Source: Bacteroidetes bacterium HGW-Bacteroidetes-7
GTDB lineage: Bacteria > Bacteroidota > Bacteroidia > Bacteroidales > UBA932
Length of the DNA: 64,000 nt
Assembly: GCA_002842465.1 (NCBI GenBank)
Contig: PHDA01000001.1
Coordinates: 1-64,000, forward strand
Direction: 5' to 3'
The stretch's first letter is position 1; each line of letters opens with the position of its first letter. The notes below the pieces were generated by a model. It saw nothing but the letters and a program-made list of their open reading frames with translations. It did no database searches and was not told the DNA's origin. Shown here piece by piece: positions 2,145 to 15,674 of this stretch. The position numbers and the translations under genes are program-made.

Positions 2145-3920
2145 ATGAAAATTACAATTAAGCAAAAATATAAGTCTATAAATCCTCCATGTGATTTTGA
2201 ATTACCAGATTTCTCAGTATTAACTGGTAGAAATGGAAGTGGCAAAACTCATTTATTAGAGGCAATATTAAACAAAGACAAATCCGATGTCAATATAAAT
2301 GGTGAAATTAAACGGAACATTAGATACATACCTTTTAATGGTCTAAATCCATACATTCAAGAAACCTGTGACCCAAATTCTATAACTCAACAGATAAAAA
2401 ATATTTGGAATCAATATAATAGCGCAAGACAAAACTCAACAAGAATACCTCAAGATTCAAATATGCAAAATCTCCTACGACATATAGGAGATGAGAATGC
2501 GAAAAGGTTAATTGAAAAGACAATAAATGAAACACACAAAGAGTTTGATAAATTAACTGAAGATGATTTGTCTGACAATTTCGATATTTCATTTATGGGA
2601 CAAAATGATTTTTTCACAGCTCAATTTGCCTTAATTTTTAAAAACTATCATAAAAGACAGGAAGAAAACAATATAAATGAATACTATGTTTCGAAGGGAC
2701 AAATTCCAACAAAACCAGTATTGTCAAAGCAAGAATTTGAAGACAAATTTGGAACACCACCTTGGGATTTTGTAAATAAAATTTTGTTTGAAACTAATAT
2801 TCCATATGAAGTTAATAGCCCAATAGGTACAAGAATTGAATCCAACTTCAATTTCAAATTAAAAGACCGAACTGCAGGTTTTGAAATTAGTTCTGCTGAC
2901 TTATCGACGGGTGAAAAAGTTCTAATGTCTTTAGCATTAGCAATATATAACACTGGAGGCGATGTTGGAAAACCAGATTTATTATTGTTAGATGAACCTG
3001 ATGCTGGTTTACATCCTTCTCTGTCTCAAAAAATGGTTGATGTTTTAAATAAAAATATTGTCATTGAAAATAAGATCCCAACAATAATTACAACACATTC
3101 ACCAACAACAGTAATTGCTTCAAAAGGAGTATCAATATATCAATTAATACGAGGCAATAATATTCCAACAAAAGTCTCAACACAAGAGGCTGTTGAAATA
3201 TTATCTTGTGATATTCCTTTTTTAAAAATATCTACGGATAAAAGAAGACAGGTCTTTGTGGAAAGCAAATATGATGTACAATATTACGAACAGCTATTAA
3301 ATATTTTTTCAAGGTTTGTTTCATTTAATGCGGAACCTATTTTTATTCCTGCAAGAACTTCAAATGGTTCAAATTGCACAGATGTTATAGAAGTAGTAAA
3401 GAATTTATCAGACAATGGTAATGACCAAATTTTTGGAGTAATTGATTGGGATTTAGTTAATAACTCTAATGGTCGCATTATAGTTTTAGGTGAAAACAAA
3501 AGGTATGCTATTGAAAACTATTTGCTTGACCCACTTTTAATGGGTTTGTTGTTTATTAGAGAAACAAAAATAAATATTGCAGATTTTATTGGTCTTTCAA
3601 TTAATAATTATGGACAAGTCGCAAACCTTACTATTGGTGATGCCCAAATAATAATAGATAAAGTATTGTTGGACTTAAATTTAAATACAGGTAATAATTT
3701 ACAATATTCGACAATTAATAATTGGAATTTAATTATAAATGAGTCGTTTTTAAAACACCAAGGACATGATTTGGAAACTCTTTACAAATCAAAATATCCT
3801 TTCTTAAATATTTATCAAAGAGAGGATAGTTTGAAAAAGGATATTATAAATAAGGTAATTAATGATTTCCCTGATTTTACATCTAAAGACTTATTAGAAA
3901 CAATGTTGAAAATAAAATAA
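2145..3920 (+). CDS. OLD-like AAA/ABC ATPase with C-terminal TOPRIM-like (DUF4435-like) domain
   Basis: A 591-residue protein. The N-terminal ABC-type ATPase has Walker A GRNGSGKT (residues 28-35), signature LSTGEK (253-258), Walker B LLLLDEPDAGLHP (D283, E284) and an H-loop TTHSP (H318). From about residue 368 a second domain begins with VFVESKYD (E373), then IDWD (D434, D436) and YAIENYLL. That is the Glu...Asp-x-Asp arrangement of TOPRIM-type nucleases as in the OLD family, or of the related DUF4435. Such proteins act alone or with a helicase partner in phage defence. No PtuB-like HNH or UvrD-like partner gene is adjacent, so this one looks stand-alone. Its spacers carry inverted ends (2101-2110 and 3922-3931), suggesting it moves as one module. 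A nuclease activity is inference. Confidence 0.75.
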   Translation: MKITIKQKYKSINPPCDFELPDFSVLTGRNGSGKTHLLEAILNKDKSDVNINGEIKRNIRYIPFNGLNPYIQETCDPNSITQQIKNIWNQYNSARQNSTRIPQDSNMQNLLRHIGDENAKRLIEKTINETHKEFDKLTEDDLSDNFDISFMGQNDFFTAQFALIFKNYHKRQEENNINEYYVSKGQIPTKPVLSKQEFEDKFGTPPWDFVNKILFETNIPYEVNSPIGTRIESNFNFKLKDRTAGFEISSADLSTGEKVLMSLALAIYNTGGDVGKPDLLLLDEPDAGLHPSLSQKMVDVLNKNIVIENKIPTIITTHSPTTVIASKGVSIYQLIRGNNIPTKVSTQEAVEILSCDIPFLKISTDKRRQVFVESKYDVQYYEQLLNIFSRFVSFNAEPIFIPARTSNGSNCTDVIEVVKNLSDNGNDQIFGVIDWDLVNNSNGRIIVLGENKRYAIENYLLDPLLMGLLFIRETKINIADFIGLSINNYGQVANLTIGDAQIIIDKVLLDLNLNTGNNLQYSTINNWNLIINESFLKHQGHDLETLYKSKYPFLNIYQREDSLKKDIINKVINDFPDFTSKDLLETMLKIK

Positions 3921-3962: not shown

Positions 3963-5072
3963 GTGCAAACAGACTTTACTAAAATATTGCTTGACTTCAA
4001 ATCAATTCCACGACATAAGCGGACAAAGACGTTTATGGAAATTTCTGGTTACCCTCATTACGAAAATGTCTGTAGCAATATCTTGAAATTCTATCTTGAC
4101 CCTACAAACGAACACGGTCTAAATGACTTAGTTCTAAATTCATTGTTGCATCTTATTGACATAAACTTTCAGTTTGACACTGAATTTGAACAAATTGATA
4201 TTTTTCGAGAACATCGAACGATTAATGATAACAGGCTTGACTTACTAATACTAACTGAGAATTACGCAATCGGAATTGAGAATAAAATATTTCATCATTT
4301 ACATAACGACCTAACAGATTACAAAAACACTGTAAAATCATACTGTTACAATTCAAGAAAACCAATTTACATAGTTTTATCGCTTAACAAATTAACTACT
4401 AACGAAGAAATGGAAAAGGTGAACGAAAATGACTTTGTCAATGTGACATATGAGCAGGTTTTTCAGAACATAAAACAAAATATTGGCAGACACTTAAATA
4501 GTTCAAATATCAGCTACATAAACCACTTGACAGACTTTATAAAATCAATTGAAAATCTTACACCCAAGACTATGGAGAATAAGGTACTATGGACATTTTT
4601 CAAAAACAATACCGAGACAATTCAGGAGTTGACGGTTAGCTTTAATGAATACAAGAACTCACTTTATCAAAAAATCTATCAGCTTAACGATACTCTACCG
4701 CTAAATGAATTTGCCCCAACAGTTGACCGACAATGGATATATGAGGGCTGTTGCCTAGTCCACGACTACACAATTAATTCAAAATATAAATTAGCAATAG
4801 ATACATCCATTGACATTAGCGGTTGGAAAATTCAGTTATTTGGACGTAATAGTCAATCAACTGATTTCATCTTTAATGTAATGTGCAAGGACAATGATTT
4901 TTTGCCACAACCTTTTGATAGTTATGAACGAGGCGAAAGGCTTATTTATCAAAAATTTGACACCGACATCGACATGTCTACTGTTGCAAAAACATTAACT
5001 GACTTGCTGAAAAGAATCGAGAATTATAAACAGCGGACAGATGATCATAACGTCATTTTACACGGGTTTTGA
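3963..5072 (+). CDS. PD-(D/E)XK nuclease superfamily protein (PDDEXK_4-like)
   Basis: A 369-residue protein starting at GTG; no better ATG exists before the conserved region. The N-terminus has the YENVCSNILKF...LDP...EHG pattern of the PDDEXK_4 family. A putative catalytic core follows: D93 in RLDLLI and E106-N-K108 in GIENKI, that is Asp-x(12)-Glu-x-Lys. The C-terminal 180 residues (after about 190) are not recognised and may bind the target. These proteins are common single genes in bacterial defence islands; the role as a restriction-type nuclease is inferred from fold motifs and location. It lies between two spacers with repeat character and has no close operon partner: 42 nt after the upstream gene and 131 nt before the next. 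Confidence 0.75.
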   Translation: MQTDFTKILLDFKSIPRHKRTKTFMEISGYPHYENVCSNILKFYLDPTNEHGLNDLVLNSLLHLIDINFQFDTEFEQIDIFREHRTINDNRLDLLILTENYAIGIENKIFHHLHNDLTDYKNTVKSYCYNSRKPIYIVLSLNKLTTNEEMEKVNENDFVNVTYEQVFQNIKQNIGRHLNSSNISYINHLTDFIKSIENLTPKTMENKVLWTFFKNNTETIQELTVSFNEYKNSLYQKIYQLNDTLPLNEFAPTVDRQWIYEGCCLVHDYTINSKYKLAIDTSIDISGWKIQLFGRNSQSTDFIFNVMCKDNDFLPQPFDSYERGERLIYQKFDTDIDMSTVAKTLTDLLKRIENYKQRTDDHNVILHGF

Positions 5073-5896: not shown

Positions 5897-5962
5897 ATAA
5901 AAACAAACACTATTAGTTAGTATATATTTGAATTATTGAGCTTTAAAAACTAGTTTTGTAAT

Positions 5963-6199
5963 ATGAATTATAGATTAGAAAATAACAATCCCGCAGATTT
6001 TGAAAGGTTAGTGAATTCTATCTGTCAAAAGATTTCAGGAACAGGAGTTGTTGAATTTTCACCAGGAAAAGATGGAGGACGAGATGGGAAATTTACCGGT
6101 ACTGCTCAAAATTTCCCTTCTACAAAAGATAGTTGGTCTGGTAAATTTATAATCCGAGCGAAACTGTTCAATGTCATTAGACGATCTCATATTAATTAA
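5963..6199 (+). pseudogene. Truncated N-terminus of a restriction-endonuclease-like protein
   Basis: Only 78 codons remain. Residues 1-67 look like the start of a PD-(D/E)XK nuclease-like protein: an N-terminal FERLVNSICQKI helix, the KDGGRDG motif (residues 36-42) that supplies the catalytic Asp, and WSGKFIIRAK (about 58-67) at the (E/Q)-x-K strand. The frame then runs into 11 unrelated residues and stops, so the body of the enzyme is missing, and the usual Gln/Glu before A-K appears as Arg. From memory, similar N-termini occur in effector nucleases of ABC three-component systems; this was not checked. The break lies about 100 bp upstream of the methyltransferase operon and probably marks a recombination scar. 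Confidence 0.6.
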
Positions 6200-6293
6200 T
6201 TTTCCTGTTACATGACAACAAAAAATGCCTTTTTAATTATATGGAAATTCCTCACTATAAATTCAATAATAGGAACTCATCTGAAAAAATGAT

Positions 6294-7640
6294 ATGAGAA
6301 AACTAACTTTTATTGATTTATTTGCTGGGCTTGGCGGTTTTCACTTAGCACTTGAACAACTTGGATGTAAATGTGTCTTTGCTTCAGAAATCAAAGAAGA
6401 CTTACGACATCTTTATAATATAAATTTTCCGGACACTCAAATTTACGGCGATATAACTCGTATTTATCCAGAAGATATTCCTCCTCATGATATTTTATGT
6501 GCCGGTTTTCCGTGTCAACCATTTAGCCAGGCAGGCAAGCGACAAGGTTTTAATGATGAAAAAGAAAGAGGAAATCTCTTTGATAACATTTGTGCAATCC
6601 TTGAAATTCACAGACCAGAATATGTTTTACTTGAAAATGTGTCAAATCTTAAAGGGCACGATCATGGGAATACATGGAGAACGATAAAATCCAAGCTCGA
6701 AGCACTTAATTACGAGGTTTTTGAACCAAAAATTCTTTCCCCTCACGAATTTGGTATTCCACAACACCGTCGTCGTATCTATATAGTATGCAGAAATAAG
6801 GACTTTGGAACACTTGATGGCTTTTCATTTCCAACAACCCGCCCGATGCAATGCGATATAAATAAGATTATAGATACAAATGAAGTTCAAATTCAAAAAC
6901 TAAAACCGGAATCTCGCAATCAACTTGCTATTTGGCAAGAATTTATTGATCTGACAATTCAAAATGGAGATACACTCCCTTCATTTCCAATTTGGTCTAT
7001 GGAGTTCGGTGCAAACTATAAATTTGAGGCAACACCACCCGCATTTCAGAATTTAGAAGATTTGGTTGGTAGTAGGGGAAAGTTAGGTCAAAAAGTTACT
7101 GGAACTACCGTGGCTGAGTGTTTAAGTCACCTACCAAATTACGCATATAAAGATAAAAATAAAGTGTTCCCACAATGGAAAATTAGATATATCCGTCAGA
7201 ATAGAGAATTCTACAATAGGCATAAATCATGGTTAGATAGTTGGATTGAAAAAGTAAAAAATTTTGATAATAGTCATTTGAAAATGGAATGGAATTGCGG
7301 TAAAGATGCAGAGCCTACTATTGAAAATAAGATTATCCAATTCAGAGCGTCAGGGATTCGTGTAAAAATGCCGTCATTTTCTCCTGCATTAAATCTAATC
7401 AGCACTCAAATACCTATTTTTCCTTGGTTGCCGCTCCCTAAAGAAGCACTAAATGAGGGTGAACCAGATAAAGGAAGATATATGACTCTTAAAGAAGCCT
7501 CAAAATTGCAAGGCATGCAAGATTTGAAGTTCGGAGACAACAACTTCACTCTTTCACAAGGACGTTCATTTGAGGCACTTGGTAATGCTGTGAATGTAAC
7601 AATCATTAAGCATATTGTAAAAAAACTACTCAAGTTATGA
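6294..7640 (+). CDS. DNA (cytosine-5)-methyltransferase
   Basis: A 448-residue C5 methylase that transfers a methyl group from S-adenosylmethionine to cytosine in DNA. The motif order is classical: motif I DLFAGLGG (8-15), motif IV GFPCQPFS with catalytic C74, motif VI ENV (E114), motif VIII QHRRR (157-161) and motif X GNAVNV near the C-terminus. The target-recognition region (about 200-370) is unlike anything I can assign. ATG 6294 is chosen because the ATG six bases upstream is closed by a stop. The stop overlaps the next start (ATGA at 7637-7640), so it is translationally coupled to the GHKL gene. It probably marks host DNA against the nucleases encoded downstream. Confidence 0.95.
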   Translation: MRKLTFIDLFAGLGGFHLALEQLGCKCVFASEIKEDLRHLYNINFPDTQIYGDITRIYPEDIPPHDILCAGFPCQPFSQAGKRQGFNDEKERGNLFDNICAILEIHRPEYVLLENVSNLKGHDHGNTWRTIKSKLEALNYEVFEPKILSPHEFGIPQHRRRIYIVCRNKDFGTLDGFSFPTTRPMQCDINKIIDTNEVQIQKLKPESRNQLAIWQEFIDLTIQNGDTLPSFPIWSMEFGANYKFEATPPAFQNLEDLVGSRGKLGQKVTGTTVAECLSHLPNYAYKDKNKVFPQWKIRYIRQNREFYNRHKSWLDSWIEKVKNFDNSHLKMEWNCGKDAEPTIENKIIQFRASGIRVKMPSFSPALNLISTQIPIFPWLPLPKEALNEGEPDKGRYMTLKEASKLQGMQDLKFGDNNFTLSQGRSFEALGNAVNVTIIKHIVKKLLKL

Positions 7641-9181
7641 GCGATAATATAATAGACACTGTCAGCATAACAATTGGCACAACGATGTATGGTAGATTTG
7701 AGGACCTTCCAAATACCACTTCACACATATTAGCCGAATTTATTGATAATGCATTACAATCGTATAGGGACAACAAAACTAAATTGGAAAATCTTGAAGA
7801 AGATTACAAACTAAAAGTAACAATTGATATTGATTGGGATAAAGCAGATAATAGAGCAAAAACAATTGTTATTACTGATAATGCAGCAGGTATAGCGAAA
7901 GATAAGTATGTCAGTGCATTTATGCCCGCCCTAACACCCGAGAACAACAAAGGATTAAATGAATTCGGGATGGGATTAAAAACCGCTGCATGTTGGCTTG
8001 GTGAATCATGGACAGTAAAAACAAAAGCTCTAAATGAAGATGTTGAAAGAACTGTATCTTTCAATCTAAATGAAGTTATTGCTAACGATTTAGAAGAACT
8101 GCCTGTAGAAACCTCTTCTAAGGGAATCAATGAACACTACACCATAATTACTACAACAGACTCCACAAAAAATGTTCCGGCTTATAAAAGCATTTCAAAG
8201 ATTAAGACTGAACTTGCAAGTATTTATAGAAAATCATTGAGAGAAAAAGAGATGATAATCAAGGTGTGCGGTGAAGAGTTAGCTTTTGAAGAATATGAGA
8301 TTCTGACTGCACCGTTAAATAGAACACCTAATTCACCCCCTATTTATTGGAAAAAAGAAATTGATTTCAAATTTGGTAAGTATAGGGCAAAAGGCTTTAT
8401 TGGTATTTTAAGAGATATTAATAGCACACAAAACGGCTTTGTGTTATTACGTCGCGGGCGTGTTATAGTCGGGGCAGAAACAGATGGTCGATATTTCCCA
8501 AAATGTTTATCTGGGTCAACAGGTACATTTCGATATAAACGTTTATTTGGGGAACTTGAATTAGACGGATTTGATGTTTCTTTTAACAAGAATGACATAC
8601 AAGATAAAGAGAATCTTGATGCTTTAATGGAAGCTCTCAAAGGGGAAATACATACCAAAGAATTTGATTTATACAATCAAGCAGAAGAATACCGTCTTGA
8701 TGATACAAGAAAGCATGTAAAGAAAATAGTTACAAAATACAACTCCTCCCCTAAAGACAACCGGAGTATCATTTCAATTGACAATTTTGCAAATAATGAA
8801 GTTGTTCAATCAAACACTGAATCGACAAAATCTGAGGTAGCCAACGAACCAACTGGAACAGATCTTATGCCAGTCGTAATAGGGGAGTATGGTGCAACTT
8901 ATAAAATAAAGGATAAAAATTATACGCTAAAAGTTCAATTTGTTGAGTCAGGTAATGATTTATTTTGGGTAGATGTCAGACAAAAAAACGAGAATATTAT
9001 CATTTGTCAAATAAATACAAAACATATTTTCTTTCAGTATTTTGGCAAACCAAGCGAGTCAAACATAGCAATTTTAAAGACTTTGGCAATTGCCAAATTT
9101 ACAGCGCGTGAGTCCGGCCAAGATAGTGCTACGGATTTATTCAATTTTTTTAATGAATATATCAAAAAGACAAAAGTTTAA
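7637..9181 (+). CDS. MutL/MORC-like GHKL ATPase of restriction-modification locus
   Basis: A 514-residue GHKL ATPase, not a sensor kinase: no His-box or membrane segment. The N box is EFIDNALQS (E34, N38), G1 is DNAAGI (from D81), and G2 is FGMGLKTAA (about 110-118). After it comes a second domain with LRRGRVIVG and an FNKNDI segment (about residue 317) corresponding to the conserved lysine of MutL/Hsp90-type transducer domains. Dimeric ATP-gated clamps of this type were predicted to work with Z1-type helicases and a methylase in restriction systems, and are thought to be ancestral relatives of eukaryotic MORC proteins. The gene starts inside the methylase stop codon and is 3 nt from the Z1 gene, so all three are co-transcribed. 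Confidence 0.9.
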   Translation: MSDNIIDTVSITIGTTMYGRFEDLPNTTSHILAEFIDNALQSYRDNKTKLENLEEDYKLKVTIDIDWDKADNRAKTIVITDNAAGIAKDKYVSAFMPALTPENNKGLNEFGMGLKTAACWLGESWTVKTKALNEDVERTVSFNLNEVIANDLEELPVETSSKGINEHYTIITTTDSTKNVPAYKSISKIKTELASIYRKSLREKEMIIKVCGEELAFEEYEILTAPLNRTPNSPPIYWKKEIDFKFGKYRAKGFIGILRDINSTQNGFVLLRRGRVIVGAETDGRYFPKCLSGSTGTFRYKRLFGELELDGFDVSFNKNDIQDKENLDALMEALKGEIHTKEFDLYNQAEEYRLDDTRKHVKKIVTKYNSSPKDNRSIISIDNFANNEVVQSNTESTKSEVANEPTGTDLMPVVIGEYGATYKIKDKNYTLKVQFVESGNDLFWVDVRQKNENIIICQINTKHIFFQYFGKPSESNIAILKTLAIAKFTARESGQDSATDLFNFFNEYIKKTKV

Positions 9182-9184
9182 ATT

Positions 9185-11512
9185 ATGCAACAAATTATTA
9201 TAGATAAATCAACTGAACCAGCTACTGCATTAAAGTTTGCACTTCAAAAAGTCACCTGTGGTAACTTTTTTGAAACTTTTATCGAATCACAGAAACAAGG
9301 GTATCAAAGAACTGATGGTTCAATAAGAAAAAAGGGCATCACAATTAATGGAGCTGTTAATCTTAGAGAAGAAACAGCCAATATCCTTGCACATTGTAAT
9401 CCGCATGATGCAATTTCAAATCCGGAAACTACTCATCTTGTCGTTGGTTATGTTCAAAGTGGAAAAACTTTATCTTTCACAGGTCTTTCCGCTCTTGCTT
9501 TAGATAATGGTTATCGTGTAATTGTTTTTCTTGCCGGCACAAAGAACAACCTATTAAGTCAAACTTCAAAAAGATTGCGTAAAGACTTGATTGGAGTTTC
9601 ATCTGCAAATAATGATTATTTTAAAATTCATTCAAATCCTACAATTAAAGTAATGGAGGAATTGATTGGGCATATTGAATCTTCAGATAAGCCAATCATT
9701 CTTATTCCAATCTTAAAACACTACAAACATATTAATCAACTTTCAGAGGTATTTAAAAGCAATGACTTCAAAGATGTGATGTATGATGAGACTGTTCTTA
9801 TTGTTGATGATGAGGCTGATCAGGCTTCATTAAATAGTTTCGGTCGGAAAAATAGTCAAAATGCAGAAAATGAGGAGTTGGAAGAATCAAAAACTTATGA
9901 ATCCATTTTAAAACTTCGGGCAGCACTTCCTGGTAACACTTATATTCAATATACGGCAACTCCACAGGCAAATATTTTGATAAGTATGCAAGACCTTCTT
10001 TCGCCCAAAAGTCATACCTTACTAACACCTGGCGAGGGATATGTTGGAGGAAAACTATTCTTTGGCAAAGATGGACCGAATCATGACTTGTTTAACGGTG
10101 GTTTGATAAAACAGATACCGGACAATCAGGTATTTCACAAGAGGAGAAATCCTTTAAAAAAAATACCACAATCACTTAAGGACGCTCTTATGCTACACAT
10201 AATGGCAGTTGCTATTGTAGTCAAATTTCTAAAAGTTGATGACGTCTCATATCTTTCAATGATGGTTCACCCAGACAATACAAAGCCGTGTAATAAAAAA
10301 TTCAAAGAATGGATCGAAAAGGAACTTCGAAATTGGCGATTGGCTTTAAAAAAACCAGATGGTCAAGATGACAAAGAAGCGATTTTGGATCGCTTTAAAG
10401 AACTTTTTCCTATGGCGATTGAATATTACTCAGAGGATGAGCGTCCAACTTTCGAACAAATTAAACGATTCATTCCTGACATTATTAACGACCGAAAAGT
10501 ATGGCTTGTCAATACTGATGAAGATGCAGAAACTGAAATAGAGGGGGATAATTACAAAATGCATATTCTTGTTGGTGCTGAAATGCTAAATCGTGGTTTT
10601 ACCGTTGAGAAGTTGGCAACTACTTATATGCCTCGCTATTCTGTTGGTCCAACAAATGCAGATACAATTCAGCAACGTTGTAGATTTTTTGGATACAAAC
10701 AAGATTATATAAAATCTTGTCGTGTGTTTTTGCCAAGTTGGTCTGTAACTAATTACATTGATTATGTTAAACATGAAGAAGAACTCCGATCTACTTTGGC
10801 AAGTTGTGATACTTTGGCTGCCGCTGAACGGAAAATTCTACTTTCACCCAATTTAAGACCAACAAAACAAAACGTACTTCCTATTTCAGTTGTGAATACC
10901 AAGTTAAAAGGAATGCGAGGAATGCAAGCATTTGAAAGTAAATCTTTGATCGAAGAAAATGATAATCTGGTTAGGTCATTTTTACAAAAGCATGAGTCTT
11001 CTTTTAATATCTTGTATGAATACTCCACTCTCGACCGTACACACAGAGGTTTTAAACTACCTATTGACGATGCAATTAGCTTTCTAAATGACTTCCGTTT
11101 TGGGAACTTTTTGGATGCACGACGTAAAGCCGATACTATTCGTTATTTGCGATATTTATCAAGTGAGGATAATGAGAGCCCATTGACGTTTGTCTATTTT
11201 ATCCAAATGGCATATCAAGCCCCAATTAGACGCCGTAAATTTGATTTTGATAATTTGAAATTGTCAGTTGAAACTGATTTATTTGCTGGTCCAAGTTCTG
11301 CAACTGATTCTACTGACTACCCAGGTGATAGAAAAATTGTTGGAGAGGACTCTATAACTTTTCAATTGTATCATTTCCATTTAGAAAGTGCACCGCTTGA
11401 CTTTGCTCATGAAGCTTACACAATAGCAATCAACTATCCGGCTTCATTAGCTGCTAATTATTGCTCAAATGAAGAATCTAAACAAGAAGATGATTTAGAA
11501 GATGATGAATAA
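9185..11512 (+). CDS. Z1-domain superfamily II ATPase/helicase
   Basis: A 775-residue SF2-type ATPase with a Z1 domain. Motif I is GYVQSGKT (88-95, K94), motif II VDDEAD (D208-D212), motif III YTATPQAN (about 256), motif V MLNRGFTV (467-474) and motif VI IQQRCRFFGY (about 493). Z1 proteins are DNA-translocating or remodelling partners of MutL/MORC-like ATPases in predicted restriction systems. The C-terminus is acidic (ends in a run of Asp/Glu) and overlaps the next gene by 11 nt. It is located between the GHKL ATPase and the DUF4420 nuclease, the order expected from known loci. It is presumably the motor that couples target recognition to cleavage; this is inference from the family. Confidence 0.92.
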   Translation: MQQIIIDKSTEPATALKFALQKVTCGNFFETFIESQKQGYQRTDGSIRKKGITINGAVNLREETANILAHCNPHDAISNPETTHLVVGYVQSGKTLSFTGLSALALDNGYRVIVFLAGTKNNLLSQTSKRLRKDLIGVSSANNDYFKIHSNPTIKVMEELIGHIESSDKPIILIPILKHYKHINQLSEVFKSNDFKDVMYDETVLIVDDEADQASLNSFGRKNSQNAENEELEESKTYESILKLRAALPGNTYIQYTATPQANILISMQDLLSPKSHTLLTPGEGYVGGKLFFGKDGPNHDLFNGGLIKQIPDNQVFHKRRNPLKKIPQSLKDALMLHIMAVAIVVKFLKVDDVSYLSMMVHPDNTKPCNKKFKEWIEKELRNWRLALKKPDGQDDKEAILDRFKELFPMAIEYYSEDERPTFEQIKRFIPDIINDRKVWLVNTDEDAETEIEGDNYKMHILVGAEMLNRGFTVEKLATTYMPRYSVGPTNADTIQQRCRFFGYKQDYIKSCRVFLPSWSVTNYIDYVKHEEELRSTLASCDTLAAAERKILLSPNLRPTKQNVLPISVVNTKLKGMRGMQAFESKSLIEENDNLVRSFLQKHESSFNILYEYSTLDRTHRGFKLPIDDAISFLNDFRFGNFLDARRKADTIRYLRYLSSEDNESPLTFVYFIQMAYQAPIRRRKFDFDNLKLSVETDLFAGPSSATDSTDYPGDRKIVGEDSITFQLYHFHLESAPLDFAHEAYTIAINYPASLAANYCSNEESKQEDDLEDDE

Positions 11513-12530
11513 AAAAGCAAACTATAATATGGAAAGTAACGCTATTTTTTCTCAATTTAAGAACCTCGTAAAATCTACAACTAATAATGAGGCATTTGAT
11601 GTGATTTCTATCAGTGATTTACCTCATAAATTGGGTGTTTCTTGCGAAGGATTTCCAAAATTTTTTGTTTCAACAAACAATTCAATTTCCTCTACTCAAA
11701 ATATCATTCGGGAAATGCTATCTGTTGAGTACAATTTACCATGTTTCATAGTTGAAAATGGAGATGTAAAGCAAAAAGACTGTTTCTCGGTTATTACTTT
11801 AAGAACTAATGATGTTTCACTTCAAGCATATTTCATTGAAATTTTTTTAATGATGCTCCAAAAAATCTCAAAGGAGCCTTCACGAAGAGAACTTTCAATT
11901 GAAGTTGAGAACCTAATTACTATTTTCTCCACTTTAACCAAACCCCCAAGACAAAAGTTACAGGGTTTATGGGCTGAACTGCTAATAATTGAACGAAGTC
12001 TGCACCCGGAAACATTAATTAATGCATGGCATAATTCGCCAGCTGCAAAATATGACTTTACGCTTGGTCGTGACAAAATAGAGGTTAAAAGTACTTCGTC
12101 AGAAGAACGTGTACACCATTTTTCACTTGACCAACTTAACCCTTCCCCAAATTCTCGTTTGCTGATAGCGTCTTTAATTGTTCGAGAATCTGGTCAAGGA
12201 AGTGGAGGGCTTTCTGTTCGGGATCTTTACGAACGTATATGTAGAAGAGTTACTGCAATTAGTGCTCGTTTGCAACTATATACAATTATGGCCGAAACTA
12301 TTGGAAGTGACTTAGCAAAACTCGACAATACATTTTTCGATTATACAGAAGCCTCTGATACACTTTCTTTTTATGATTCTAATGATGTACCACACATTGA
12401 TAAAACAGCTGTACCCCAATTTGTTTCTGAGGTGAAGTTCTCGAGCAATTTGTCTCATTTGATAGATATACAAAATACACTTTCTACTTTCGACTGCTCA
12501 AATAGTCCTTTATATAAAAGTTTATTTTAA
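11502..12530 (+). CDS. PD-(D/E)XK motif protein (DUF4420)
   Basis: A 342-residue protein whose central part carries an intact nuclease core: E159 in GLWAEL, D185 in KYDF and E194-V-K196 in DKIEVKST. This Glu...Asp...Glu-x-Lys order is that of PD-(D/E)XK restriction nucleases and matches the DUF4420 family that accompanies Z1 and GHKL genes. It is the most likely DNA-cutting subunit. The ATG at 11502 overlaps the Z1 coding end; an internal ATG at 11529 (MESNAIF) is a plausible alternative that would leave a 16-nt gap. The next gene follows after 13 nt. Confidence 0.88.
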   Translation: MMNKKANYNMESNAIFSQFKNLVKSTTNNEAFDVISISDLPHKLGVSCEGFPKFFVSTNNSISSTQNIIREMLSVEYNLPCFIVENGDVKQKDCFSVITLRTNDVSLQAYFIEIFLMMLQKISKEPSRRELSIEVENLITIFSTLTKPPRQKLQGLWAELLIIERSLHPETLINAWHNSPAAKYDFTLGRDKIEVKSTSSEERVHHFSLDQLNPSPNSRLLIASLIVRESGQGSGGLSVRDLYERICRRVTAISARLQLYTIMAETIGSDLAKLDNTFFDYTEASDTLSFYDSNDVPHIDKTAVPQFVSEVKFSSNLSHLIDIQNTLSTFDCSNSPLYKSLF

Positions 12531-12543
12531 TTAGTTCAAAAGT

Positions 12544-14772
12544 ATGGTAATTGAAAAAAAAGACAAGGAAGAATTAAAGAAACTCTTTGATGAGGCATTA
12601 TCTAATTCTGCCACATTCAAACATATTGAAGGTGTAAACCCAAGTCGTATAATCTTTGACGGTGTTGAATACCACATATTTATCAAAAACTTATCTCCAG
12701 CCCAACTATCTAACGGCAATCCAAATATATGGAGAATTCAATTACCGATACGTGAAGTTTTTGAACATATAAAAGAATCAACACTTCCATTTATCTTACT
12801 TGGATATGATTCAGAAAATGATGTTTATACTACTTGGAATCCTCATTGGGCAAAACAACGTCTTAATGTTGCGAAAAGTGCTTCGTTTTATTCTCGCTTA
12901 AACATTCAGAAAGAAGCACGAATCACAAATCAGTTACAACATCTTGAATTAAATAATGATGGTGAACTAATTGCATTTCCACGTGAAAAAATTGCTTATT
13001 ATCTTGTGAATTTAAAAATATTCTTTCCAGAGTTGTCTGATTATGTTGCGGTAGGCTCTCGAAAAAGAACAGAAGCAAATGAAGCATACAAAAAACTTAC
13101 AGATTCGAAAAACATACCTGACTTTGCTCATTATTTGGCTCATTTAGGCTTTTTGGACAAAACCATAAGTAATTATTGCCATGCTATTAAAAATCTTATA
13201 AATGACAGCATTATTTCCCGTAATCGTAAGATTTTTTTGGCGTATGATTCTATTACTGAATACCCAAAAGCCGTTCCTGCATTTTTGGAAATTCCAGAGG
13301 TAAAAGCTATGGACATTTCTTGGAATAATACTTATTCGGCTGCTTTAACAAAATATATTGATTTTTTAATGGAGATATGCAATGTAAACACTCGGGAGAC
13401 TGTAATTACAACCCCGGAAATAATTGAAACCAATGAAACTTTTAATTATTTCTGTAACACATATTATTTAGGCAATTTCATGGGCTATTTGTGGGGGAAG
13501 GAATTGAGTGAAAGAAGCATTAGTACATATACCAATGCAATTTACAAACTTATTAACAAAGGTTACATACAGCACTATGCAGAGGTTTTTCTAAAATATA
13601 CCAGAATTAAAGACTATTTTAATGCTATTGAGACATTCCTTTCAATACCGGAAATTAGTGAGTTAAATCAGAACTGGAAATCTGTTTTTTCGGTAGCATT
13701 AAATCATTATGTGCATTTTCTTATTGAATGGCAAGATATTAATAACAAGCATACTATCAATTATTCAGAACAAGCAACTTCTGACTTTGCTAAAGAAAGT
13801 AAAAGTTTCGAAAATGAATTACAATCAGAAACTAACACAAATGAGGTAATTCCTGAAACAGATTGGGAAGAGTCTTTTTTGGATATTGAGAACAAACTAA
13901 CTCGGATTGCTAACCCTGCATTAATTGATTTACTTCGAACATATTTGGATACTGAATATAAATCCCCGGCAAGCGCATTTAATATTATTGAAGATTTTTA
14001 TGGGAATCGTTTCCCCTCAATGCAGATGAAAGATTGGCAAAAATTATTTGAGAAAATTGATTGGAGCAATCCATATTACTTCCCTTCTTTGGTTGCCGTA
14101 CCCGAAGGGAAAAAGAAATCACATATTTTGAGGGTAACTTACCTGGATGGTAAAATCATTCAGGAAAGAGTTGTAGCTAAAACACTTGTAGAAGTCGTTC
14201 GTAGCGCTAACCCCGAGCAAATTTCGTCATTAAATATACTGTTAGCTGGTGTTAATCTTGTATCTAAAGAAATATCTGAGAAATACGAAAAATGTCAAAT
14301 ACCAATTCAAGATGGATATTATGTGATGACACTTTCTGATACTCCCAAAAAATATCAGATTATTAAAATGATCTCTGACGCTCTTCATTTAAATCTAAAT
14401 GTAGAGTTTATTTCAAATGACGATTCTGACCAACCTCAAGCAGTTCCGGTTCCTTATGTAGTACCTATTCAATCCAGAACAAAAATACGAGTTACATTCC
14501 CTGATGGTAGAATTATTCAAGAAGGCAGAGTTAGCAATACCCTAATTGAAGTTGTAAAGTTTGCTGGTGCCCAAAATGTAAGAAACCTAAATATCTCAAT
14601 CAACAATGACAATCTTGTGTCCAACAAAGTAACTCCTACATACGAAAACTCTTTAAAACCAGTAGGGAATGATTTATTTGTACACACTAATAGTTCTACA
14701 CAAACTAAATTCGCTCAGATTCAGCAAATTTCAGCCGAACTTAATTTGGGGCTTTTAGTAGAAATAAAATAA
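12544..14772 (+). CDS. Multidomain protein with two kinds of internal duplication, restriction locus
   Basis: A 742-residue protein of no family I can name with certainty. Residues 1-150 form one domain (motifs FDGVEYHIFIKNLSP, RIQLPI, FILLGYD, TWNPHWAKQRLN) that could be a DNA- or modified-base-reading fold. Residues 197-277 and 315-395 are a pair of about 80-aa repeats, period 118: each has a (S/T)ISxYxxAIxxLI helix, then FLxIPE, then W-x-x-x-(Y/F)SxALxxYxxFL. The helix order is reminiscent of the core-binding (SAM-like) domain of tyrosine recombinases. Residues 526-626 and 646-742 are a second pair, each starting with RVT(Y/F)xDGxIIQE and TL(I/V)EVV, and ending on a conserved LxLxVE. No nuclease or ATPase motif is evident. 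Location, 13 nt after DUF4420, makes it part of the operon, most likely a target-recognition or adaptor subunit. Confidence 0.65.
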   Translation: MVIEKKDKEELKKLFDEALSNSATFKHIEGVNPSRIIFDGVEYHIFIKNLSPAQLSNGNPNIWRIQLPIREVFEHIKESTLPFILLGYDSENDVYTTWNPHWAKQRLNVAKSASFYSRLNIQKEARITNQLQHLELNNDGELIAFPREKIAYYLVNLKIFFPELSDYVAVGSRKRTEANEAYKKLTDSKNIPDFAHYLAHLGFLDKTISNYCHAIKNLINDSIISRNRKIFLAYDSITEYPKAVPAFLEIPEVKAMDISWNNTYSAALTKYIDFLMEICNVNTRETVITTPEIIETNETFNYFCNTYYLGNFMGYLWGKELSERSISTYTNAIYKLINKGYIQHYAEVFLKYTRIKDYFNAIETFLSIPEISELNQNWKSVFSVALNHYVHFLIEWQDINNKHTINYSEQATSDFAKESKSFENELQSETNTNEVIPETDWEESFLDIENKLTRIANPALIDLLRTYLDTEYKSPASAFNIIEDFYGNRFPSMQMKDWQKLFEKIDWSNPYYFPSLVAVPEGKKKSHILRVTYLDGKIIQERVVAKTLVEVVRSANPEQISSLNILLAGVNLVSKEISEKYEKCQIPIQDGYYVMTLSDTPKKYQIIKMISDALHLNLNVEFISNDDSDQPQAVPVPYVVPIQSRTKIRVTFPDGRIIQEGRVSNTLIEVVKFAGAQNVRNLNISINNDNLVSNKVTPTYENSLKPVGNDLFVHTNSSTQTKFAQIQQISAELNLGLLVEIK
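14119..14769 (+). repeat. Tandem duplicated C-terminal domain in the 742-aa protein
   Basis: Two roughly 100-codon units, 14119-14424 and 14479-14769, encode the same pattern: basic start, RVT-x-x-DG-x-IIQE, a TL-x-EVV helix, L-N-I strand, LVS, a K-rich helix and a terminal L-x-L-x-VE. Identity between the two is moderate, so the duplication is old. I recall similar units at the C-termini of other restriction-locus proteins but could not check. Confidence 0.7.
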
Positions 14773-14933: not shown

Positions 14934-15674
14934 ATGAGCAGCAAAAATTCAAATATTGACAGATTATTAAAATCCGTTGGAATAGAAACCTTTATTAAAT
15001 ATTTTAACCAGTTTCAAACTTTGAACAGCTCTGAGTTGAAAATGCTTTTTGATAAAGAAAATGAAAATTGGAAACACACTAGCAAATCTACAAAAGCTAG
15101 TGTAGGTAAAAGAATTTTTAATGAAGGAAGAGAAGTTGAAGCATTGGAGCATATTATTTTCACAAAGAATGAAATATTAATTCCAAATATCAATGAAGTA
15201 ATGCAACATGCACAGTTGATATATAAAAACTATATTGATAATAATATTGAAAAATTTGAAACTATTTCCTCATATGAAAAAATGGTAATAGTAAAATACA
15301 GGCTTCAACAAGGGATATTTAGAACTAATTTACTCCGTCATTGGAAAGGCTGCTCTGTAACTGGTTGTAAAAATAGTTCTCTTTTAATTGCATCACACAT
15401 CAAACCATTTTCTGAATCAGTTGACAATGAAAAGTATGATGTATATAACGGCTTATTGCTCGCCCCCAATTACGATAAACTTTTTGACAATTTTCTTATT
15501 TCTTTTAATGAAGCAGGCGAGATTTTAGTTTCAAAGCAACTCGATAAGAGTGATTTAGAAAGTTTAAGCATAACCGGAAAGGAAAAATTACGGATGGAAA
15601 AAGTAACGGAATCAACCCAAAAATATCTTGAATATCACCGAAGAAAATTCGAAATGAATGAACTAATTAATTAG
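14934..15674 (+). CDS. HNH endonuclease (HNH_2-like)
   Basis: A 246-residue protein. The C-terminal half carries the HNH_2 signature: zinc-binding CSVTGC (C140, C145), ASHIKPF with H155, then NGLLLAPNYDKLFDNFL, with the Asn and the final Asp/His-position residues in the usual spacing. The N-terminal 130 residues are helical and unassigned. HNH_2 proteins are common as restriction-type nucleases and often recognise modified DNA. A 161-nt gap separates it from the 742-aa gene, so it may be transcribed alone, but it is on the same strand and is the last gene before the composition changes. It may be a second effector of the same locus or an independent type IV-like enzyme. Confidence 0.8.
   Translation: MSSKNSNIDRLLKSVGIETFIKYFNQFQTLNSSELKMLFDKENENWKHTSKSTKASVGKRIFNEGREVEALEHIIFTKNEILIPNINEVMQHAQLIYKNYIDNNIEKFETISSYEKMVIVKYRLQQGIFRTNLLRHWKGCSVTGCKNSSLLIASHIKPFSESVDNEKYDVYNGLLLAPNYDKLFDNFLISFNEAGEILVSKQLDKSDLESLSITGKEKLRMEKVTESTQKYLEYHRRKFEMNELIN

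Follow-up and report, generated by a model that had tools for sequence, protein, structure and literature searches.

We propose that a 742-aa protein encoded by Bacteroidetes bacterium HGW-Bacteroidetes-7 is the DNA-recognition subunit, probably one that senses the methylation state, of a five-gene ATP-dependent restriction-modification cassette, an assignment that we consider somewhat better than an even bet. The cassette lies in the window, i.e. the whole stretch of 64,000 nucleotides that was analysed, and contains the following genes:

6294 to 7640, plus strand: C5-cytosine DNA methyltransferase, the first gene of the cassette (Pfam PF00145, E=5.9e-69; PCQ and ENV motifs intact)
7637 to 9181, plus strand: GHKL (MutL/paraMORC-like) ATPase (Pfam HATPase_c_3, E=8.8e-13; motifs EFIDNA, DNAAGI and GMGLKTA)
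9185 to 11512, plus strand: Z1-domain superfamily-2 helicase (Pfam Z1, E=1.6e-32, and ResIII; motifs GYVQSGKT, VDDEADQ and DTIQQRCRFFG)
11502 to 12530, plus strand: DUF4420 PD-(D/E)XK nuclease (Pfam PF14390, E=5.5e-32; active-site motif DFTLGRDKIEVK)
12544 to 14772, plus strand: the 742-aa protein, with an ATG start, the fifth and last gene of the cassette

Neighbouring genes overlap or stand a few bases apart, and the motifs of all four genes upstream of the last one are intact. All five genes are present, in identical order and between unrelated flanks, on a contig labelled Paludibacter jiangxiensis (L001 among the sequences compared). The nucleotide similarity between the two sequences, 78%, is confined to positions 6292 to 14766 of the window, and its edges are the outer ends of the first and the last gene; the cassette thus forms a unit, the last gene of which encodes the 742-aa protein. 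Its GC content is 0.343, that of the left flank 0.305 and that of the right flank 0.399. It is a mobile bacterial defence cassette. An HNH_2 endonuclease gene located downstream (14934 to 15674) was considered as a further member of the system and rejected, because the conserved block stops at 14766. Directly upstream, PADLOC and Pfam detect an LmuB-like gene (187 to 1950), an AAA/OLD-like ATPase gene (2145 to 3920) and a PDC-S26-like PD-(D/E)XK gene (3963 to 5072); these are likely defence genes, which places the cassette in a defence island. A short open stretch just ahead of the cassette (5951 to 6190, MNYRLENNNPADFERLVNSICQKISGTGVVEF...) resembles a truncated gene start, perhaps one that was broken when the cassette arrived.

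An operon with a C5 methylase, a GHKL ATPase, a Z1 helicase and an RE-fold nuclease has been described both for a putative defence system (PMC9523054) and for MORC/paraMORC restriction-modification operons (PMC2292703), and the core of three of the former (Z1, PD-(D/E)XK/DUF and C5 methylase) is present here according to Pfam. The difference lies in the last gene, which in our cassette encodes a protein with an MTaX1 domain and two tandem duplications, and not an AIPR protein; type II of the putative defence system has an AIPR protein, whereas Pfam finds none in the cassette. No such MTaX1 protein with a double duplication is described in the accessible parts of the text of these two papers. 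The MZA (mzaABCDE) anti-phage system is a more distant relative, as the NCBIfam scores of the Z1 helicase against MzaC (E=6.2e-40; 137 bits, equivalog cut-off 1500), of the nuclease against MzaD (E=1.9e-5; 24 bits, cut-off 420) and of the GHKL ATPase against MzaB (E=0.088; 11 bits, cut-off 850) are all far under the cut-offs. The five genes of the cassette (6294 to 14772) include a C5 methylase but no sigma factor like MzaA, and, according to Pfam and NCBIfam, MzaE (AIPR) is absent, the fifth gene being that of the MTaX1 protein. By analogy, the cassette may also be compared with CglI and NgoAVII, which likewise have a Z1 helicase with a separate DNA-recognition domain and a C5 methylase (PMC4267653), although there, unlike here, recognition is the task of a B3 domain in fusion with a PLD nuclease. 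In CglI and NgoAVII, the Z1-helicase subunit fires only once the separate B3 domain has bound its site (PMC4267653).

The 742-aa protein is composed of the following parts:

12667 to 13005, plus strand: MTaX1 domain, residues 42-154 (Pfam PF20296, E=6.7e-19, 68.9 bits against a cut-off of 25)
13120 to 13404, plus strand: helical repeat 1, residues 193-287 (local alignment; weak Phage_int_SAM_4 match)
13474 to 13758, plus strand: helical repeat 2, residues 311-405 (local alignment; weak Phage_int_SAM_5 match, under the gathering score)
13894 to 14064, plus strand: conserved segment, residues 451-507 (LTRIANPALIDLL...FYGNRFPSMQMKDWQKLFEKIDW), common to the short homologue of L048 and to L010
14128 to 14406, plus strand: SeqA-like copy 1, residues 529-621 (AlphaFold model, match to SeqA 1lrr, hhalign to SeqA)
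14485 to 14763, plus strand: SeqA-like copy 2, residues 648-740 (40% identical to copy 1; match to SeqA 3fmt in the full-length model)

The initial annotation had recognised two different tandem duplications by eye, and local self-alignment against 1000 shuffles confirms both of them, each lying about 27 SD above the shuffled sequences. The helical repeats align without gaps over 95 residues (score 169; shuffles mean 29.3, SD 5.1, maximum 50) and the C-terminal repeats over 93 residues (score 171; shuffles mean 28.9, SD 5.3, maximum 64), so that the residue ranges given before (197-277 and 315-395; 526-626 and 646-742) needed correction only at the domain edges. Between the helical and the C-terminal repeat there is no relationship (score 35, reached by 194 of the 1000 shuffles). 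A plain BLASTP self-comparison returned the self-match alone and did not display the repeats. Both pairs are kept, at 72-73% identity, in the orthologue encoded by the Paludibacter contig. What had been called an N-terminal domain is MTaX1, of which residues 42-154 are a clear member above the gathering score; the orthologue scores 74.2 bits. As noted before, the protein shows no catalytic motif, and no recognisable catalytic domain was found in it. PADLOC, NCBIfam and PHROGs gave no match, and the target-recognition domain of type I specificity subunits (HsdS) is absent among its Pfam matches with E up to 0.1. When the complete protein was searched against PDB sequences, only chance matches to antibodies were obtained. 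The full-length AlphaFold model is poor (pLDDT 47.6), the Foldseek matches obtained with it are meaningless outside the C-terminal pair, and the viral structure library contains no significant match.

SeqA, which regulates replication in Enterobacterales and their relatives, is a reader of DNA methylation in E. coli; its target mark is 6-methyladenine in GATC. Based on modelling, both domains of the C-terminal pair are predicted to have the DNA-binding fold of the C-terminal domain of SeqA, a likeness and not a family membership. Copy 1 is modelled with a pLDDT of 92.4 and a pTM of 0.83, and in VIA-align against the PDB the first four places are all taken by SeqA structures, namely 1lrr (Z 7.5, rmsd 2.6 A, 89 residues aligned), 3fmt (7.3), 1iu3 (7.2) and 3sk7 (6.4), with 85-89 residues aligned and the next fold at Z 3.8, bearing in mind that a Z below 8 may mean merely a common arrangement. 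Copy 2, taken from the full-length model, matches 3fmt (Z 6.9, rmsd 3.0, 90 aligned). Foldseek with copy 1 also returns as its first match 1lrr, a structure of SeqA on hemimethylated DNA (probability 0.89), with an E-value (0.22) that alone is not significant. Likewise, a profile of the domain family places SeqA in the top four positions among PDB sequences (E 0.08-0.12). In hhalign, the family scores 34.1 against a SeqA alignment (maximum of 200 shuffled controls, 19.6) and 23.9-32.7 against four single SeqA sequences, each above 376 natural decoys (maximum 23.5); as SeqA was picked owing to the earlier matches, these tests are confirmatory and do not constitute a discovery. Pfam, on the other hand, matches no family to the C-terminal domain, and for 16 members of the domain family none of the matches is convincing, with only two of them reaching SeqA (PF03925), at E=0.026. 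In the 742-aa protein, Pfam matches neither PF03925 nor the N-terminal domain of SeqA. Besides the predicted fold, the YWVxTNTNTxxK loop pattern is shared with SeqA, from which the protein differs in having two copies per chain, in giving no Pfam match to the N-terminal oligomerisation domain and in an identity of about 8-16%.

At the sequence level, the resemblance to SeqA lies mainly in the loop with which SeqA contacts DNA. The matched stretch includes the loop YWVITNTNTGRK, home of Asn150 and Asn152, two residues that contact DNA (GATC) (PMC6225831). The DNA-contact residues of SeqA that were compared are R116, T117, R118, N150 and N152. In copy 1, N150 is aligned with L and N152 with D; in copy 2, their counterparts are N and S. 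The R116-R118 loop has no clear equivalent, while the loop pattern is retained. The contact residues are thus only partly kept, from which neither GATC specificity nor hemimethylation specificity follows. The SeqA dimer binds two nearby GATC sites that are at most 31 bp apart (PMC6225831); by analogy, the tandem pair could bind two nearby sites without dimerising. In a tree, copy 2 of the window protein groups with those of L001 and of L010 (support 0.90), so the duplication predates their split. A similar domain may be present in GmrSD proteins: hhalign relates the C-terminal domain to the part of these proteins that separates GmrSD_C from DUF4268 (probability 70; L031:2629-2958), although this part gives no match to SeqA when compared directly (score 13.7).

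The idea that the protein contains a DNA-binding fold is supported, but for the C-terminal pair and not for the helical one to which it had been applied. The integrase core-binding likeness proposed for the helical repeats finds an echo in Phage_int_SAM_5 and, lower, Phage_int_SAM_4, which are the best Pfam matches after MTaX1 in both the window protein and its Paludibacter orthologue, always under the curated cut-off (SAM_5 gives 20.9-22.0 bits, cut-off 22.3). This resemblance to the core-binding (SAM-like) domain of tyrosine recombinases is a weak one. In the full-length AlphaFold model the helical repeats have a pLDDT near 30, and a profile of the repeat found only chance matches in the PDB and no good relatives in 295 Bacteroidia genomes. 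A pair without assignment and a poor full-length model would also suit a scaffold that joins helicase, ATPase and nuclease, whose duplications mediate contacts between proteins and whose likeness to SeqA is one of structure only, given that fold similarity alone shows no function. We regard a scaffold as highly improbable, because the likeness to SeqA is concentrated where SeqA touches DNA, and because single-domain relatives exist alone or fused to nucleases in many restriction-modification contexts.

A profile search with the C-terminal domain detected relatives in several Bacteroidota genomes. A single SeqA-like domain with an N-terminal helical part is present in L013, L029, L052, L054 and L055. 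In L049 (3715-8965), an EcoRII-type enzyme and a C5-methylase-like gene are divergent from an AIPR gene, which is followed by the gene of a 222-aa protein consisting of two SeqA-like domains and nothing else. In L030 and L050, the domain is fused to HSDR_N nuclease-like domains, with no obvious methylase, and in L051 (7506-12375) a 330-aa protein with a SeqA-like C-terminal end adjoins two genes of a BREX-like locus, brxL and one of phosphodiesterase type. Relatives of the domain lie in or beside Eco57I/N6 methylase, BREX, type III, EcoRII/AIPR and HSDR_N loci; homologues occurring mainly outside restriction loci, which would have spoken against the initial annotation, were not what we found. 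No methylase was recognised adjoining the SeqA-like gene in L052, L053, L055 and L056, so the domain is commonly, but not universally, associated with restriction loci. A literature search of incomplete coverage yielded no account of a restriction system with SeqA-like domains. The 742-aa protein has no relative among the plasmids searched, and among phages a single fragment was found, on a mobilisation-like element. This sequence (L010, MT838449.1), labelled as a bacteriophage, carries a truncated relative beside genes that by eye resemble relaxase and mobilisation genes, and judging from its gene content it is more likely a mobilisable element than a phage. No relative was detected in viral contigs, whether the query was the 742-aa protein, the L010 fragment, the protein of L029 or the Z1 helicase.

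A role in the discrimination of modified DNA has been proposed for the MTaX1 domain (PMC10853773). Known and fetched members are joined to HNH or GmrSD_N-type domains, instead of which the protein described here has the helical and SeqA-like pairs. Reading the sequences, we find an N4-type methylase beside an MTaX1-DUF262-like protein in L011 and beside an MTaX1-HNH protein in L012; Pfam identifies an MTaX1-GmrSD_N fusion in L034. The gene of this fusion, on a Hymenobacter plasmid (L034:10654-12219), is convergent with and adjacent to a methylase-GHKL-Z1 operon. The proposed role of MTaX1, its fusion to relatives of modification-dependent enzymes (L034) and the SeqA-like/HSDR_N fusions lacking an obvious methylase would all be in line with a type IV-like sensor of modified DNA carried by phages, which would supplement the methylase-based restriction so that phages with modified bases are attacked too. 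We consider such a sensor quite unlikely, since the operon that encodes the MTaX1 protein also includes a C5 methylase of its own, suggesting that the mark read is the one made by this methylase.

The neighbourhoods of the Z1 helicase provide a further comparison. Relatives of the helicase (E up to 1e-10) number 16 among 359 Bacteroidales genomes. An AIPR gene follows the nuclease slot in seven Bacteroidales neighbourhoods (L079, L081, L082, L083, L086, L087 and L089), while an MTaX1 protein occupies this slot in the window, L001 and L048, and neither of the two does so in L076 and the Rathayibacter plasmid L035. Because the protein takes the last position, after DUF4420, it might replace AIPR as a downstream effector of the abortive-infection type instead of being a recognition subunit. 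This is very unlikely in our opinion: neither AIPR nor any enzymatic family is matched in it by Pfam, PADLOC or NCBIfam, the modules that are found are predicted binding modules, and in L049 the tandem SeqA-like protein accompanies AIPR and does not replace it.

The homologue occupying the slot in L048 has 230 aa and consists of MTaX1 and the equivalent of residues 451-507, with neither duplication. Therefore, MTaX1 and this segment make up the core of the protein, both pairs are elaborations, and the helical and SeqA-like pairs are not essential to this type of system. It should be noted that the L048 locus may be incomplete; its second gene encodes a 170-aa protein to which Pfam assigns no family, its Z1 frame is short, and a GHKL gene was not observed. 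The dispensability of the C-terminal pair is also what would be expected of a regulator, for instance a protective reader of self DNA, in which the pair binds hemimethylated host sites that have just been replicated and holds off the helicase and nuclease or regulates the methylase. The predicted fold match would agree with this, as SeqA itself sequesters and protects hemimethylated DNA (origins) (PMC6225831). We nevertheless judge a protective function unlikely, since MTaX1, the core shared by the family, is elsewhere joined to nuclease-type domains, which suits targeting better.

Consequently, of the initial proposal of a specificity subunit of the restriction operon that reads a bipartite site through two copies of two domains, the first part is supported, in that the protein is encoded by the last gene of a conserved cassette, has no recognisable catalytic domain and in one of its duplicated domains matches a DNA-binding fold, but the bipartite design is not an essential feature of the system. 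We infer DNA binding, methylation sensitivity, complex formation and the order of events in the following model. The C5-methyltransferase would mark the host sites, and the 742-aa protein would inspect DNA by means of its N-terminal MTaX1 domain and its two SeqA-like domains; these are linked covalently and could bind a pair of nearby sites like the SeqA dimer does, with the helical pair adding a DNA clamp or a docking surface. On DNA without the proper mark, it would license the Z1 helicase and the GHKL ATPase, which would then travel on the DNA or form loops in it, and would likewise license the DUF4420 nuclease, which would make the cut. Several observations argue against a recognition role: SeqA reads 6-methyladenine in GATC, while the methylase of the cassette makes 5-methylcytosine; the base-contact residues of SeqA are only partly kept; the fold match stays below Z 8; and L048 dispenses with both pairs. 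A wider and more tentative view, which we think doubtful, is that restriction, BREX-like and Z1-helicase systems of Bacteroidota have in common a family of SeqA-like methylation readers that had escaped recognition, and that the two joined in one chain here correspond to a covalently linked SeqA dimer, making restriction dependent on the methylation state of two nearby sites.

In summary, the recognition role for the 742-aa protein bears on a question for which, to our knowledge, no mechanism is known, namely how Z1-helicase systems discriminate between self and non-self. Naming a recognition subunit with a predicted DNA-binding fold similar to that of a methylation reader makes this question testable. 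The chain of evidence that leads from SeqA to the restriction loci of Bacteroidota would be unexpected to most specialists, and a function found for the C-terminal domain, which has no Pfam match, would transfer to several restriction contexts of these bacteria. The predicted structures suggest that the cassette and other restriction systems of Bacteroidota carry a methylation-reading part that had previously gone unrecognised.
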